A DNA stretch of 64,000 bases from NCBI GenBank assembly GCA_023657465.1, contig JAGTJX010000004.1, positions 218,904 through 282,903 of the forward strand, in the 5' to 3' direction. A model generated the notes under the pieces. That model was not told the origin of the DNA and made no database searches. It worked only from the letters and a program-made list of their open reading frames with translations. Shown in pieces: positions 2,703 through 49,617 of this stretch (position 1 is the first letter of the stretch; each line of letters opens with the position of its first letter). A program made the translations under genes and the position numbers. The stretch comes from Lysobacteraceae bacterium. GTDB lineage: Bacteria > Bdellovibrionota > UBA1018 > JAGTJX01.

Positions 2703-4163
2703 CTAATCGTCGAGCTGCGAATCAGAGATTGGGTTTTCTTCAATCTCAGGTGAGTCACTAGGAACCCAGCCATACTCACGTTCTTTTCGATACAGGGTCC
2801 TTCGATTGATTCCTAAGATTTGAGAGGCCTTATCCTTACGACCGCTTGTTTTGTCGAGTACGAGCTTCATGTACTTCTCTTCAAGTTGAGCCAGAGTCGG
2901 GAAGTTCTGAGTAGATTGATTGAAAAACTGATCTGGAGACTGAACATCAGCATTGGGAATATCAGATTCTTCGATGAGGCTTCCAGTGGCGAGAACCACT
3001 GCGCGCTCAATGACGTTTTCTAGTTCCCTGACGTTGCCTTCCCATTTGAGCTTGAGAAGTTTGTCGATGACCTTCGGACTAAATCCACGAACTTGAGATC
3101 CGTTTTGGGCAGAGTATTTCTCTAAGAAGTGCTGAGCGAGCAGAGGAATGTCTTCTTGGCGATCTCTCAATGGTGGGATCGAAATGGGAATCACACTCAG
3201 GCGATAGAATAGATCTTCTCGGAATAGTCCTTCCTTGATTGCAGCCTTAATATCCTTGTGTGTAGCGGCGACGATTCTTACATCGACGTCGATCATTTGA
3301 TTGTCACCAACAGGTCTGACTTTACGCTCTTGAATGACTCGTAGGAGCTTCGCTTGCAGAGAAGGACTCATGTCACCAATTTCGTCTAAGAAGAGTGTCC
3401 CACCGCTTGCTTCTTCGAATAAACCTTTTTTCCGTTGAATGGCTCCTGTGAATGAACCTTTGGCATGTCCGAAGAGTTCGCTCTCTAAGAGTGACTCTGG
3501 AATCGCTGTACAATTAATCGCGATGAAGGGTTTGCTCGCTCTTGATCCAGAGTTATGAATCGCACGAGCGACCATTTCTTTTCCGGTTCCGCTCTCGCCT
3601 GTAATGAGAATATTTGCGATTGAGTGAGATACTTTCTTCACAAGAGAGAAGATCTGCTGCATCGATGGCGAGCGACCCAAGAAGGTATCTCCCATCGCGA
3701 AGTTCTTTCTGATCTCTTGTCTTAAAATTTCATTGTCTTTGGATAGAATGCGCTTTTCCATCGAGCGTTCAATAGCTACACGCATTTCTGCAAGTTTGAA
3801 GGGCTTCACGATGTAGTGGTAAGCGCCGTTTTTCATTGCTTCAATTGCAGTGTCGATTGATCCGAAAGCGGTGATGAGGATGACCGGGATTTCGTGGCGT
3901 TCTTTCTGTAGGATTTTTAAGAACTCCATGCCATCCATTTGAGCCATCTTCAGGTCTGAGATGATGAGATCGACTTCGATGCTGGGTGAGCCCTTCTCGA
4001 GAGATCCTCCTGGTCGGAGAGCTTTCAGTGCATCGATTGCAAGTGGGAACGTAGTGATCTCGTAGCCCTCAGCTGTAAGGAAGTCTTGAAGCATGGATCG
4101 CATCTCGCGATCATCATCGATAACGACTATGTGGCCTTTTTTTGTGGAGACTTGAGATATCAT
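2703..4163 (-). CDS. Sigma-54-dependent response regulator (NtrC family)
   Basis: This is a 486-residue transcriptional activator with the order receiver, AAA+ and Fis-type helix-turn-helix. The receiver has the acidic triad at D16-D18 and phospho-acceptor D70, preceded by an unusual insert of about 12 residues (GGSLEKGSPSIE). The AAA+ domain has Walker A GESGTGKE, Walker B GGTLFLDEIGD and the sigma-54 contact loop GSFTGA, a Ser variant of GAFTGA. The C-terminal helix-turn-helix is KASQILGINRRTLYRKEREYG. It follows the universal stress protein gene by 4 bases. The operon appears to be driven by the perfect sigma-54 promoter at 5867-5882, so positive autoregulation is likely. Confidence 0.95.
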   Translation of the reverse strand: MISQVSTKKGHIVVIDDDREMRSMLQDFLTAEGYEITTFPLAIDALKALRPGGSLEKGSPSIEVDLIISDLKMAQMDGMEFLKILQKERHEIPVILITAFGSIDTAIEAMKNGAYHYIVKPFKLAEMRVAIERSMEKRILSKDNEILRQEIRKNFAMGDTFLGRSPSMQQIFSLVKKVSHSIANILITGESGTGKEMVARAIHNSGSRASKPFIAINCTAIPESLLESELFGHAKGSFTGAIQRKKGLFEEASGGTLFLDEIGDMSPSLQAKLLRVIQERKVRPVGDNQMIDVDVRIVAATHKDIKAAIKEGLFREDLFYRLSVIPISIPPLRDRQEDIPLLAQHFLEKYSAQNGSQVRGFSPKVIDKLLKLKWEGNVRELENVIERAVVLATGSLIEESDIPNADVQSPDQFFNQSTQNFPTLAQLEEKYMKLVLDKTSGRKDKASQILGINRRTLYRKEREYGWVPSDSPEIEENPISDSQLDD

Positions 4164-37672: not shown

Positions 37673-38452
37673 ATGCGTTCATTAAGATTGAATTGGGTTA
37701 TAGCCTTTTTTATCATGACTACAGGTTTCTGGACGGGGCTTGCCCACTCTACACCACCCACATCTAGCGGTACCACTACTGGTAGTAGTGGAGGAGGCGG
37801 TGGTTATAATTGTACTACCTCGTATTATGCGAATGGTTCAGAATGTGTATGCGGGCCTAGCGGAGGAGCTGTTTATAAAACAACCTCTTATGTTTCTACT
37901 ACTGATGACTCACATGCCAAGTCTTGTGATGGGTCTACTAGTGATGCGTGTAATCCTGGTTGTCCAGGTACCTTCTTTGTTTGTGAGTCTGTAGCTTGTA
38001 CTGCCATACCAGGAACATCACCACCACCGCCGCCACCAGCGACAACAGTTGCTACTACCGTTGCTACGACAATTTCGCCGCCACCGCCGCCACCAGCGAC
38101 AACAGTTGCAACGACAATTGCGCCGCCGCCACCACCACCATCGACAACAGCTCCAGCAACAACGGTTGCTACAACTATCGGTGTGCCACCTCCATCAACT
38201 TCAGTTTCACCACCACCTCCAACACCTCCAACACCTTATGGTCCACTTCCTGGCTACAATTCGCAACCTGCGAGATGTACACCTCCTAATGCTGGAAACT
38301 TCACAGTGGCTGATAGCTCCGGAAGATGCCCAGAAAACACTCAGAGATTCAGGGACTATTGCACTCCGGGTGGAGGATACATCTGTATCAAGTCTGTAGG
38401 ATCGGGCATATCTAATGAAACTCAGCGTGCTCGACCGATTCAGGCTCAGTAA
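37673..38452 (+). CDS. Secreted Pro/Thr-linker protein with C-terminal Cys module
   Basis: The product has 259 residues from the ATG at 37673 (MRSLRLNWVIAFFIMTTGFW). A signal peptide (about 1-25) precedes an N-terminal Cys-rich domain (about 40-110, eight or more Cys). Next comes a repeated linker of PPPPPP and ATTVATT units (about 115-195). The C-terminal Cys module (RCPENTQRFRDYC, GGGYICI) resembles that of the protein at 57000 (QCRGEYTKIRNYC, GQFVCM). The linker is mucin-like and likely extended and extracellular. The function is unknown. It is preceded by the dyad and promoter described separately. Confidence 0.8.
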   Translation: MRSLRLNWVIAFFIMTTGFWTGLAHSTPPTSSGTTTGSSGGGGGYNCTTSYYANGSECVCGPSGGAVYKTTSYVSTTDDSHAKSCDGSTSDACNPGCPGTFFVCESVACTAIPGTSPPPPPPATTVATTVATTISPPPPPPATTVATTIAPPPPPPSTTAPATTVATTIGVPPPSTSVSPPPPTPPTPYGPLPGYNSQPARCTPPNAGNFTVADSSGRCPENTQRFRDYCTPGGGYICIKSVGSGISNETQRARPIQAQ

Positions 38453-39373: not shown

Positions 39374-40674
39374 TGTTAGCAATTCCCAAACACACAAAAG
39401 GGTTTCGCACTCGTCGTGCAATGAATTGGTTAGTTCTCGGATTCACTTATTCTGCAATGTACATGGGCAGATACAATCTCAGCTTCGCGAACAAGGCATT
39501 AAGCGATGCCTACGGTTGGGACAAAACCCAAATCGGCGCGATCATCACTGCCGCTCTCTCTCTCTACGGATTCTCGGCAATATTCAACGGACCGATAGCT
39601 GACAAAATCGGTGGCAGAAAAGCAATGCTCATCGGAGCTTCGGGAACTGTGTTTTTTAACTTCCTGTTTGGACTTGGTGCTTACATGGGATTTTTGGGGA
39701 CAGGTTCCTATTTGCTCCTCTACTTTACTGTCATCTGGTCATTAAATTGCTACTTCCAGTCCTATAGTGCTCTTTCACTCATTAAAGTGAATGCGAGTTG
39801 GTTTCATATTTCTGAGCGTGGCGTTTTCTCAGCGATTTTCGGTTCGATGATTCAAGGTGGACGCGCACTCATTTATGCAATCGGTCCTGCACTTGTCGTC
39901 ATTCTTCCTTGGCAGTGGGTGTTCTTCGTTCCTTCGATCATCATCGCTATCATGGCATTCCTCACTTACCGAGTTGTACAAGACGCGCCTGAGAAGGCAG
40001 GTCTCTCTCCTCTAGACGTACAAGATGCTTCGAGTGGTGACACCGAAGTGGTGAGCGTGAAGTATGTTATTAAAAAAGTTCTTACGAATCCTGTCGCGCT
40101 TGCTATTGCCGCCGCAGAGTTTTGTACAGGGATAGTGAGACATGGATTCGAGCAGTGGTTTCCGAGATACATGGTCGAAGCTCAAGGATTGCAACTTAAC
40201 TCTCCTGTGTTTACGAAGAATGCGTTTGCAGTGGTGTTCGCTGGGATTGCAGGTGCGTTTGCTGCTGGAACGATGAGTGACTGGGTATTCAAAGGTCGTA
40301 GGCCTCCTGTTGCGCTTATTGGTTATGTGCTTCAAGTGCTCTGCTTGGGTGTGATCTGGCGTGCTCCGAGTTTGGACTGGGTGACTGCTGCATTCGTGGT
40401 GAATTCATTCGCAATCACGATGGTTCACTCGATGCTCTCTGGAACTTCTTCGATGGACTTCGGTGGCAAGAAAGCAGCTGCTACTGCCACAGGATTATTC
40501 GATGGCATGCAGTACATTGGCGGCGCATTTGTAGGCTTGGGTATGGGATTTCTTCTCGATACTTACGGCTGGGGTGCTTGGGGTCCAAGCATGATCGGGT
40601 TTGCGCTCATCGGTGGTGTGATCATGCTCTTCCTCTGGAACGCACGTCCTCAGTCGAAGAACTCCGGACACTAA
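39373..40674 (+). CDS. MFS transporter, organophosphate:phosphate antiporter type (GlpT/UhpT-like)
   Basis: This 433-residue, 12-helix transporter starts at the ATG at 39373, preceded by GGAGG and sharing a base with the HAD stop. The N-terminal part YSAMYMGRYNLSFANKAL resembles the OPA family Arg/Tyr-Asn signature, and loop 2-3 reads GPIADKIGGRKAMLIG. MSDWVFKGRRPP is the loop 8-9 counterpart. The OPA family exchanges sugar or glycerol phosphates for phosphate. Its stop codon lies in the left arm of the palindromic element 40672-40965. Confidence 0.88.
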   Translation: MLAIPKHTKGFRTRRAMNWLVLGFTYSAMYMGRYNLSFANKALSDAYGWDKTQIGAIITAALSLYGFSAIFNGPIADKIGGRKAMLIGASGTVFFNFLFGLGAYMGFLGTGSYLLLYFTVIWSLNCYFQSYSALSLIKVNASWFHISERGVFSAIFGSMIQGGRALIYAIGPALVVILPWQWVFFVPSIIIAIMAFLTYRVVQDAPEKAGLSPLDVQDASSGDTEVVSVKYVIKKVLTNPVALAIAAAEFCTGIVRHGFEQWFPRYMVEAQGLQLNSPVFTKNAFAVVFAGIAGAFAAGTMSDWVFKGRRPPVALIGYVLQVLCLGVIWRAPSLDWVTAAFVVNSFAITMVHSMLSGTSSMDFGGKKAAATATGLFDGMQYIGGAFVGLGMGFLLDTYGWGAWGPSMIGFALIGGVIMLFLWNARPQSKNSGH

Positions 40675-40965
40675 GCTTTTCTAGCTCTACTTCATCTGCA
40701 TTGTGATCCTAGGTCAATCGCTGCCTAAATAGTCTTCCATAGAGTGCAGCTCCTGCTTCGCATGTACTTCTCAATATATTTTAAGAAGCGGATGAGGTTT
40801 TATCGAGCGTGATGCGAGTCGATAAAGGGCAGGAGCCCGACCGACAGAAGCTTCTTAAAATATATTGAGAAGACGCATCCGCTTACATGAGCCTCAATGG
40901 AAGACTATTTAGACAGTAATTGAATTATGATTTAAACGCAGATGAAGTAGAGCTAGAAAAACTTA
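40672..40965. repeat. Long palindromic structured element, copy 1
   Basis: This element fills the gap between two convergent genes. Outer arms 40672-40699 and 40938-40965 are 28 bp with one mismatch; each arm begins with the TAA stop of the gene on its side. Middle arms 40721-40744 and 40893-40916 are 24 bp with two mismatches. Inner arms 40767-40789 and 40850-40872 are 23 bp, perfect. Between the middle and inner arms lie block 1 (40747-40767) and block 2 (40872-40895), both identical in copy 2 at 48718-48903. The apical part contains an 8-bp hairpin (40799-40806/40819-40826) and block 3 (40794-40817). Its GATGCG is complementary to CGCATC in block 2. Confidence 0.85.
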
Positions 40966-47637: not shown

Positions 47638-48720
47638 GTGAGAGCTTGCCTAATTCCTATTCTTGTTTTTGCCACTGTTTTTACACAAAACATTGAGCCT
47701 AGTTTTGCAGCAAAAGTTTTAGATAAAAACCATTTTTTGAAGTCGCGAGCACCTCTCGCTAAGGATCAAGAGACCCTGCTGAGACGTGCTTTTTACACTT
47801 ACATCTTAAACAGGCCAGAAGCGCTATACCGATGCGTATCCAGTATAGTCATGCAAACTCGTTTTTCAGATTTGAAGAAGAAGCCTGAACTTTTTGAGAT
47901 TTTCATGCTCTTAAGATCTCGAACCCTCTCCCCAACTCCAGAAATGAGTCTGCCGTTCATCAACGACGCAGCGTCGTTTGCTGAGATCTGCCCTGTGAAG
48001 TACGGAGTCTGTCAGGGAATTACGAACCTGGATCGAAAGCTCGCGATGTTGATTTATTACGATCCGAAGAATGTATCGAATCAGCCCCTACCTCCAGTAG
48101 ACAATCCAGAAGCTCGGTTTACTTACTTCGAATCGGTCATCGCTCAAGTGATGAGAGGCAAGCCTATGGTCGTTGCTGGCTACGGTAATCTTCTCAGTTT
48201 TGCTCAGGATCCTGTGGGACGAAGAGTGCTCATTGAAGCTGCAATGAAACTCTGGGCTTCAGAAAACGCGACATTGCCTTCAATTACTCAAGTGCTTCAA
48301 GCAATTAAGCATACGGTTTCAAAAAAAGAAGTGTCTGAACTCCACACCCGTCTCAGTGAGAGAATTGCGCTGAATTACTCGCCGATTATTTATTTGGCGA
48401 GATCACCTCAAGAAGCGAAGCAGAAGTGGATTCATGTACTGCAGGTGATCTCAGTGACTGCGAAAGACCCTAAGAATGGCTCTTATCGCATTCAGGTCAA
48501 GGACCCTAACTTCTATGCCGTTCAAGATCGTATTCGATTCATTGAGATGGATGGTAAAGGAAAAGCTACTTACGGCAACGCTCCACTCACTGAGATCGAT
48601 ATCGCACCAGGTGATGATCTTGAGATCGCAAGGTTTCTCGTTAATACGATTCAGTTCTGCAGAGATAACCCAATCTTCTGCACGATTCCAGGAACCCCGC
48701 CTTCTTTGATGAAGAACTAG
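47638..48720 (+). CDS. Secreted protein of unknown function
   Basis: The product has 360 residues with a GTG start and a signal peptide (RACLIPILVFATVFTQNIEPSFAAK). The mature part is mixed alpha/beta with Cys pairs (CPVKYGVCQG and QFCRDNPIFC). Near residues 245-300 (WIHVLQVISVTAKDPKNGSYRIQVKDPNFY) it resembles papain-like or C39-like folds in outline, but I cannot confirm catalytic residues. It is divergent from the giant lipoprotein. Its TAG stop lies in the left arm of the palindromic element downstream. Confidence 0.78.
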   Translation: MRACLIPILVFATVFTQNIEPSFAAKVLDKNHFLKSRAPLAKDQETLLRRAFYTYILNRPEALYRCVSSIVMQTRFSDLKKKPELFEIFMLLRSRTLSPTPEMSLPFINDAASFAEICPVKYGVCQGITNLDRKLAMLIYYDPKNVSNQPLPPVDNPEARFTYFESVIAQVMRGKPMVVAGYGNLLSFAQDPVGRRVLIEAAMKLWASENATLPSITQVLQAIKHTVSKKEVSELHTRLSERIALNYSPIIYLARSPQEAKQKWIHVLQVISVTAKDPKNGSYRIQVKDPNFYAVQDRIRFIEMDGKGKATYGNAPLTEIDIAPGDDLEIARFLVNTIQFCRDNPIFCTIPGTPPSLMKN

Positions 48721-48903
48721 CCCTCTCTTTAATTTTATGGGTACCTCAAGAGGCTCATGTAAGCGGATGCGTCCTCTTACTTTTATGTAGGAATCGCATC
48801 CAACTCTATAAAATCTCGTACTACTTCAAAAAATAAAAGTGAGATGTACATGCGAAGCAGGAGCTGTACTTTTAAGGTGCCCAATAAATTAAAGAGAGGG
48901 CTA
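48718..48903. repeat. Long palindromic structured element, copy 2 (inverted orientation)
   Basis: It lies between two convergent genes. Outer arms 48718-48746 and 48875-48903 (29 bp, three mismatches) each begin with the TAG stop of the gene on that side and are unrelated in sequence to the arms of copy 1. Inside are block 2 (48750-48773) and block 1 (48846-48866), both identical to copy 1 on the opposite strand. Block 3 (48794-48817) is 19/24 identical. Inner arms share ACTTTTAT (around 48778-48786 and 48833-48840). Compared with copy 1, the middle stem is missing. GGATGCG in block 3 is complementary to CGCATCC in block 2. Confidence 0.85.
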
Positions 48904-49617
48904 TTTTTTCTTAATGAGCCAATTCCTGACTCTGTTCTGAAGTTCGATGTCGCTTGGATCGAAGGTGCCATAGATGCGGTAGGTTTCTTGTGTGGCTCCT
49001 GGCTTAAGGAAATTCTCAGACACTGTGAGAAGTGCAGGGGTAGTTCTGCCTGTGATTTTCTCAAACTCAGGATCTTTGAAATAAAAAATACTTCCTCTGG
49101 AGATTAAGTTTTTTGAACTAAACCAAAGTCCCATTTCATCAATCTTATTCCACTCGAGTGGATACGAGATTTCTGCGCGAGCTTGCGTGGCAGGAACTTT
49201 ATAAAGTGGCGTTGAACTCTTGTCCGAATGTTTCTGAGGAGCATATCGATCTAGTAGAGTCACCAAGCGTTCTTTAGTGGGCGGCTTAATCATGTAGTCC
49301 ATTGCACCCGATTCAAGTGCATTGGAGATCACTTCAGTGTCGTCGTGTCTTGAAAGAATCACGATCGGAAGTGAGCCGTGATGAGCCATCAGAATGGCTT
49401 CAACAAGAATGAGTCCTGATTGAGACTCGCCGATGTCAAGATCGATGAGACATAAATCTGGTTGAAATTCTTCCACTTCTTTCAGGAAAGATTCTGGATC
49501 AGTAGTCGTTTTCACTTCGTATCCCATGTAGGTGACATGTCGTTTGATGAGTGCATTGATCTCTGGGTCATCATCGATGGTGAGAATTTTCTTTTTCACT
49601 TCTTTTTTTATTTCCAT
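48901..49617 (-). CDS. Response regulator with C-terminal output domain (PilZ-like?)
   Basis: This is a 238-residue protein. The receiver domain covers residues 9-130 (DDD 15-17, phospho-acceptor D59, SRHDD in the Thr/Ser position, KPPTKERL). The C-terminal part of about 100 residues (EISYPLEWNKIDEMGLWFSSKNLISRGS and later) is a beta-rich domain that may be PilZ-like but lacks an obvious RxxxR motif. The start overlaps the end of another receiver protein gene (49608-50294). Both are probably partners of the HPt protein and hybrid kinase encoded divergently. Confidence 0.85.
   Translation of the reverse strand: MEIKKEVKKKILTIDDDPEINALIKRHVTYMGYEVKTTTDPESFLKEVEEFQPDLCLIDLDIGESQSGLILVEAILMAHHGSLPIVILSRHDDTEVISNALESGAMDYMIKPPTKERLVTLLDRYAPQKHSDKSSTPLYKVPATQARAEISYPLEWNKIDEMGLWFSSKNLISRGSIFYFKDPEFEKITGRTTPALLTVSENFLKPGATQETYRIYGTFDPSDIELQNRVRNWLIKKK

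Follow-up and report, generated by a model that had tools for sequence, protein, structure and literature searches.

A multi-copy palindromic hairpin with a constant tip and variable ends, probably a non-autonomous mobile DNA element of bacteria

The usual definition of a bacterial MITE rests on fixed ends that have been copied from a parent insertion sequence. Examples such as QMITE2 and Chunjie are short (ca. 100–400 bp), non-coding, AT-rich and intergenic, fold into a hairpin over their whole length, and have no gene of their own (PMC10969869). REPs and REPINs, which are linked to RAYT proteins, are extragenic hairpins as well and are possibly recognized as folded single-stranded DNA (PMC2817692, PMC3116915, PMC3733652), insertion sequences such as ISPpu9 target palindromes or REPs (PMC1525189), and the structured non-coding RNAs of Rfam 15 have conserved helices and strong covariation. 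The hairpin family described here shares these traits of MITEs, REPs/REPINs and structured RNAs, and we regard it, with a probability of about 0.72, as non-autonomous mobile DNA, i.e., as a MITE-like palindromic hairpin that encodes no gene and whose full copies at this locus appear to be nested.

In the window (the whole stretch of 64,000 nucleotides that was analyzed), positions 48718–48903 form a single long imperfect hairpin with folding z-scores of −8.3 and −7.8 for the two strands and 0 of 200 shuffles as good. The hairpin begins with the TAG stop codon (48718–48720) of its left neighbor, a gene at 47638–48720, and ends with the CTA (48901–48903) that is the stop codon of a convergent response-regulator gene on the minus strand (48901–49617). 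We call it copy 2; copy 1 lies upstream in the opposite orientation and spans the interval from the stop codon of a glutathione peroxidase gene to that of an MFS gene. Their parts are as follows, where A, B and C denote the elements of the conserved apex that is described below.

48718–48903, plus strand: copy 2, whole hairpin element, from the left gene's TAG stop to the CTA in mirror position, where the convergent right gene stops
48718–48749, plus strand: outer left arm of copy 2, unrelated in sequence to other copies
48750–48773, plus strand: 24-nt block of copy 2, the 3' half of the outer apex in minus-strand reading (GACGCATCCGCTTACATGAGCCTC: hairpin C and stem B)
48774–48790, plus strand: inner left arm of copy 2
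48791–48816, plus strand: inner apex of copy 2 in plus orientation (ATCGCATCCAACTC...: hairpin C and stem B)
48817–48845, plus strand: inner right arm of copy 2
48846–48866, plus strand: 21-nt block of copy 2, the 5' half of the outer apex in minus-strand reading (CAGCTCCTGCTTCGCATGTAC: hairpin A and stem B)
48872–48903, plus strand: outer right arm of copy 2, the mirror of the left one, stop codon included
40672–40965, minus strand: copy 1, 294 bp long and inverted relative to copy 2; likewise a probably nested hairpin, with ca. 70 bp in its outer arms and a complete inner apex

Elsewhere in the window, at 38018–38191, short repeats code for Pro-rich PPPPPATTVATT in a secreted-looking protein.

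A preliminary description of the locus had recognized shared blocks in the two copies and proposed that they belong to a multi-copy genomic family, and both points stand. The blocks GAGGCTCATGTAAGCGGATGCGTC (24 nt, 48750–48773) and GTACATGCGAAGCAGGAGCTG (21 nt, 48846–48866), which are strands of an outer apex, recur without change on the other strand in copy 1, and a third block (CGCATCCAACTCTATAAAATCTC versus CGCATCACGCTCGATAAAACCTC) is identical at about 19 of 24 positions. As had also been noted, both copies do have an outer stem, one without relation to the other (inverted repeats I1 and I3), a stem that copy 2 lacks is present in copy 1 only (the GGGCTCCTGCCC hairpin), and the complementarity of GGATGCG and CGCATCC is longer by one base in copy 2 (7 nt) than in copy 1 (6 nt). 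With a covariance model made from six copies of this genome (G000), we found 14 copies in its 2.83 Mb at E-values between 6e-42 and 3e-9. Patterns for the two blocks had seven genome matches each, compared to none for a reversed-pattern control, and one among the first seven (L007) is a chance match in a coding region; a search for the exact pattern in the genome_contigs set gave no matches. The typical full copy is a hairpin of ca. 290–300 bp that consists of outer arms (ca. 65–76 bp), conserved core strands, an inner stem and an apex. Some copies are single hairpins with an apex only (L047 and L052), one has no inner apex (L051), one is a half copy comprising the 3' half only (L011), and in another (L006/L049) the core is interrupted by a different repeat, which is found next to the Y1-like gene of G000 as well.

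Nearly all copies in G000 lie directly 3' of a gene, most of them in sense just past its stop codon, and many are found between convergent genes, where the stop codons of both neighbors frequently occupy mirror positions in the copy (L022, L042 and L048). The expectation that the blocks come in pairs was borne out, with the half copy as the one exception; several copies (e.g., L051, L028 and L039) do not lie between convergent genes. At G000:C1:157481–157739 (L047/L053), a convergent gene pair is separated by two single hairpins in head-to-head arrangement, each of which follows one of the stop codons. Three copies have arms ending in GGTAGTCCCATACTTC-GTAGCG and the ends of the others differ; solo GGTAGTCCCATACTTC-CGTAGCG repeats, which differ little from the arm ends in these three, are located just past stop codons at L017 (G000:C2:609078) and L021 (G000:C4:70258).

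The part conserved across copies is a T-shaped apex composed of mini-hairpin A (CTCCTG, loop TCCT) followed by a stem B that encloses mini-hairpin C (CGCATCC, with CGCATCCAGC or CGCATCACGC as variants). The arms are complementary to each other without being conserved in sequence, i.e., any sequence can stand below the apex, and copies with a common core and apex can have wholly different outer arms. Further copies are carried by relatives, both within the order and in the wider phylum: 9 of 58 genomes had matches (G000 and eight relatives from its own order), and the distribution over the phylum is patchy (12 of 369 genomes). In G006, three hairpins (L034, L040 and L027) adjoin the 3' ends of tRNA-Ser or tRNA-Ser-like sequences, two of them just downstream of apparent tyrosine-recombinase genes, and beyond them come more structured repeats, which contain GGATTCGAAC; these loci look like the ends of integrative elements.

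Two sister genomes of a single genus (G041 and G042), each with tens of matches to related copies, differ at four orthologous sites that are filled with a hairpin of 180–250 bp in one genome and empty in the other, which identifies a mobile DNA element and not a fixed RNA gene. At the first site, G041 has an insert of ca. 184 bp with GTGAGTAG on one side and TAAAGG on the other, immediately past a TAG stop codon, and G042 is empty. The second is filled in G042 with an insert of ca. 246 bp that includes both arms and is flanked by 8-bp direct repeats (TTAACTAA), with G041 empty, and the third holds a G041 insert at a TTAA that is free of it in G042. At the fourth site, the G041 insert is central in a short perfect palindrome that stands alone in G042, which could be a case of loss instead of gain. 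Neither arm is present in the empty target at the first three sites, where both came as part of the insert. The length of direct repeats varies, with 8 bp at one site and 4–7, 5 or up to 14 bp at the others. A fifth site is filled in both genomes, and the differences between the two hairpins are concentrated in the apex. G042 also has a second, different insertion of ca. 149 bp (L109, 2820–2968) that is absent from G041, pieces of which recur at many places in that genome.

If one omits the inner hairpin of a full G000 copy and reads the rest of the core from the opposite strand, the result is AGTGCAGCTCCTGCTTCGCATGT^ACGCATCCGCTTACATGAGCCTC, which comprises hairpin A, stem B (CATGTA/TACATG) and hairpin C, and outer cores spliced in this way (CAGCTCCTGCTTCGCATGT^ACGCATCCGCTTACATGAG) have the same A-B-C order and topology as the inner apex, from which hairpin A (GGGCTCCTGCCC) has been deleted in copy 2. 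A search for the A..C pattern in 0.83 Mb of G000 found the elements and one stray match (reversed controls: 0), and in a profile test the real spliced cores had the top five scores above 2,600 shuffles, if weakly. A relative (G295) has an outer element with the same core that contains only a small CCCCTTCGGGG hairpin in place of the inner one. From motif order and topology together with this one weak test, we infer that each full copy in G000, including both in the window, is probably a hairpin inserted in inverted orientation into the apex of another one, between stem B and hairpin C. The preliminary description had interpreted GGATGCG and CGCATCC as loops that pair with each other. In the nested reading, these sequences match because they are inverted copies of one apex motif within a single copy. 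Of 27 copies without the partner strand GCGGATGCG, 21 still have the apical CGCATC motif, which agrees with nesting and speaks against loop–loop pairing as a functional contact. A paired-loop RNA model is not needed.

A first alternative is a structured RNA, located in 3' UTRs or acting in trans, with a conserved internal loop, a kissing interaction, and covariation that reflects selection on the fold. Changes on both sides were seen at 47 of 48 pairs, with none of 500 shuffles as high, and the sense orientation of most G000 copies directly past a stop codon would fit such an RNA. However, covariation is also expected if one DNA arm templates the other, and strong covariation between paralogous palindrome copies is by itself no evidence of a functional RNA. 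Mismatches between the arms give a divided picture: G-T and A-C were nearly equal in a first set (110:93, p = 0.26), a lack of strand preference that argues against selection on a one-strand RNA fold, while the excess of G-T in a second set from G041 and G042 (80:40) leaves some room for strand-specific pairing. The empty sites, the apical motif kept without its partner, the total difference of outer arms between copies with a common core and apex, and the lack of any match among the Rfam 15 covariance models at gathering and permissive thresholds all make this alternative improbable. A CsrA sponge (AGGA loops on the opposite strand) was considered and dropped, as several copies have GTGAT instead.

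A quite improbable second alternative holds that the apex promotes template switching during replication, with palindromic arms made or corrected from one flank that would be mutational products and not cargo. It would account for arms that are unrelated yet mirrored in close copies, for the stop codons at symmetric positions, for the symmetric mismatch types of the first set, and for a locus in G295 (L132) where the last codons and the stop of the left gene recur inverted past the apex. However, the arms arrived with the insert at the first three empty sites, even though the process could still act after insertion. The same sites weaken another idea prompted by the mirrored stop codons, namely that the flank of the target is duplicated in inverted form when the element inserts. 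The idea that all outer arms stem from terminators that were there before the insertion was rejected for G000: long palindromes (score of at least 29) in ca. 0.75 Mb of G000 are confined to copies of the element, with one inverted gene repeat as the exception, so that apex-less ones are lacking, although the idea does fit the fourth empty site. Finally, it is very unlikely that the element serves mainly to terminate transcription in both directions, or as an insulator, and is repeated only incidentally, because, despite long stems that occupy the gap between convergent stop codons, often symmetrically, there are 0 intrinsic terminator-like sites (GC-rich stem, short loop, T-tract) within 48600–49000, several copies lie outside convergent settings, termination needs no elaborate conserved apex, and the insertions are polymorphic.

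Mobile DNA is the reading that we favor. A constant apex on variable arms, together with the record of insertions, suggests that the apex, whether as a DNA strand folded on itself or as a cruciform, would be the recognition site of a putative transposase acting in trans. Copies would survive mostly right behind stop codons, at places in which an insertion is least harmful, and their arms may have been homogenized by template switching after insertion or else captured. More speculative, and rather unlikely as a whole, is the idea that a hairpin "cap" of ca. 50 nt, as the only conserved part, suffices to mobilize any palindromic arms, with cutting set by the end of the hairpin and not by terminal sequence, and with a preference for palindrome tips leading to self-nesting and the capture of new arms.

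No mobilizing enzyme was found. Two candidates were tested, and neither is consistently present in genomes that have the element. A Y1 (IS200/RAYT-like) protein is present in G000 (C2:508923–509156), but none was found in the element-bearing genomes G026, G028, G035, G041 and G042, some of which are incomplete. The only Y1/RAYT-like gene found in G000 (L106, G000:C2:505000–513000, near 3750) is followed by a repeat GAGTGTGAGCGGGAAACA-RCGAAGY-TGTTTCGTG...CGCC, and a nearly identical repeat sits in the core of hairpin copy L049. The second candidate is an IS1-like transposase (294 aa) of G261 and G262 (L137–L141), encoded by an insertion sequence of ca. 1.2 kb with 11-bp ends (AAACTGACCCA) that carries the hairpin between the transposase stop codon and its right end. 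It is absent from G000, G041 and G042, and its relatives elsewhere have no hairpin, which makes the hairpin look like a passenger.

Compared with known systems, the element behaves like bacterial MITEs in its insertion polymorphism (the four G041/G042 pairs) and its 8-bp direct repeat at one site, and unlike them it has a conserved apex and varying ends instead of constant terminal inverted repeats, and copies apparently nested in each other's apex (PMC10969869); no parent insertion sequence with the same ends was found, the IS1-like carrier of G262 being absent from G000. It recalls REP/REPIN–RAYT systems in that one inspected insertion lies directly past GTAG (a TAG stop) and that G000 has a Y1/RAYT-like gene; a TAG precedes many left ends of the element, as GTAG or a related tetranucleotide does in REPs, but is often simply the stop codon. 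Unlike these systems, it is much longer (180–410 nt), has few copies and a two-hairpin apex, the RAYT-like gene of G000 is flanked by a different repeat, and several (in part incomplete) element-bearing genomes show no Y1 protein. With palindrome- or REP-targeting insertion sequences such as ISPpu9 it shares an apparent preference for the tip or center of palindromes (the fourth site and nesting), whereas the inserting unit here is a non-coding hairpin of the same family (PMC1525189). Structured RNAs of Rfam 15 differ in that the element matches none of them, is mobile, and lacks a strand bias in one of the two sets. Should the tip serve as the recognition site, this would point to a structure-reading transposition system in this bacterial phylum. 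In contrast to the usual MITEs, it is the tip that is constant and the ends that vary, with copies apparently set tip in tip.
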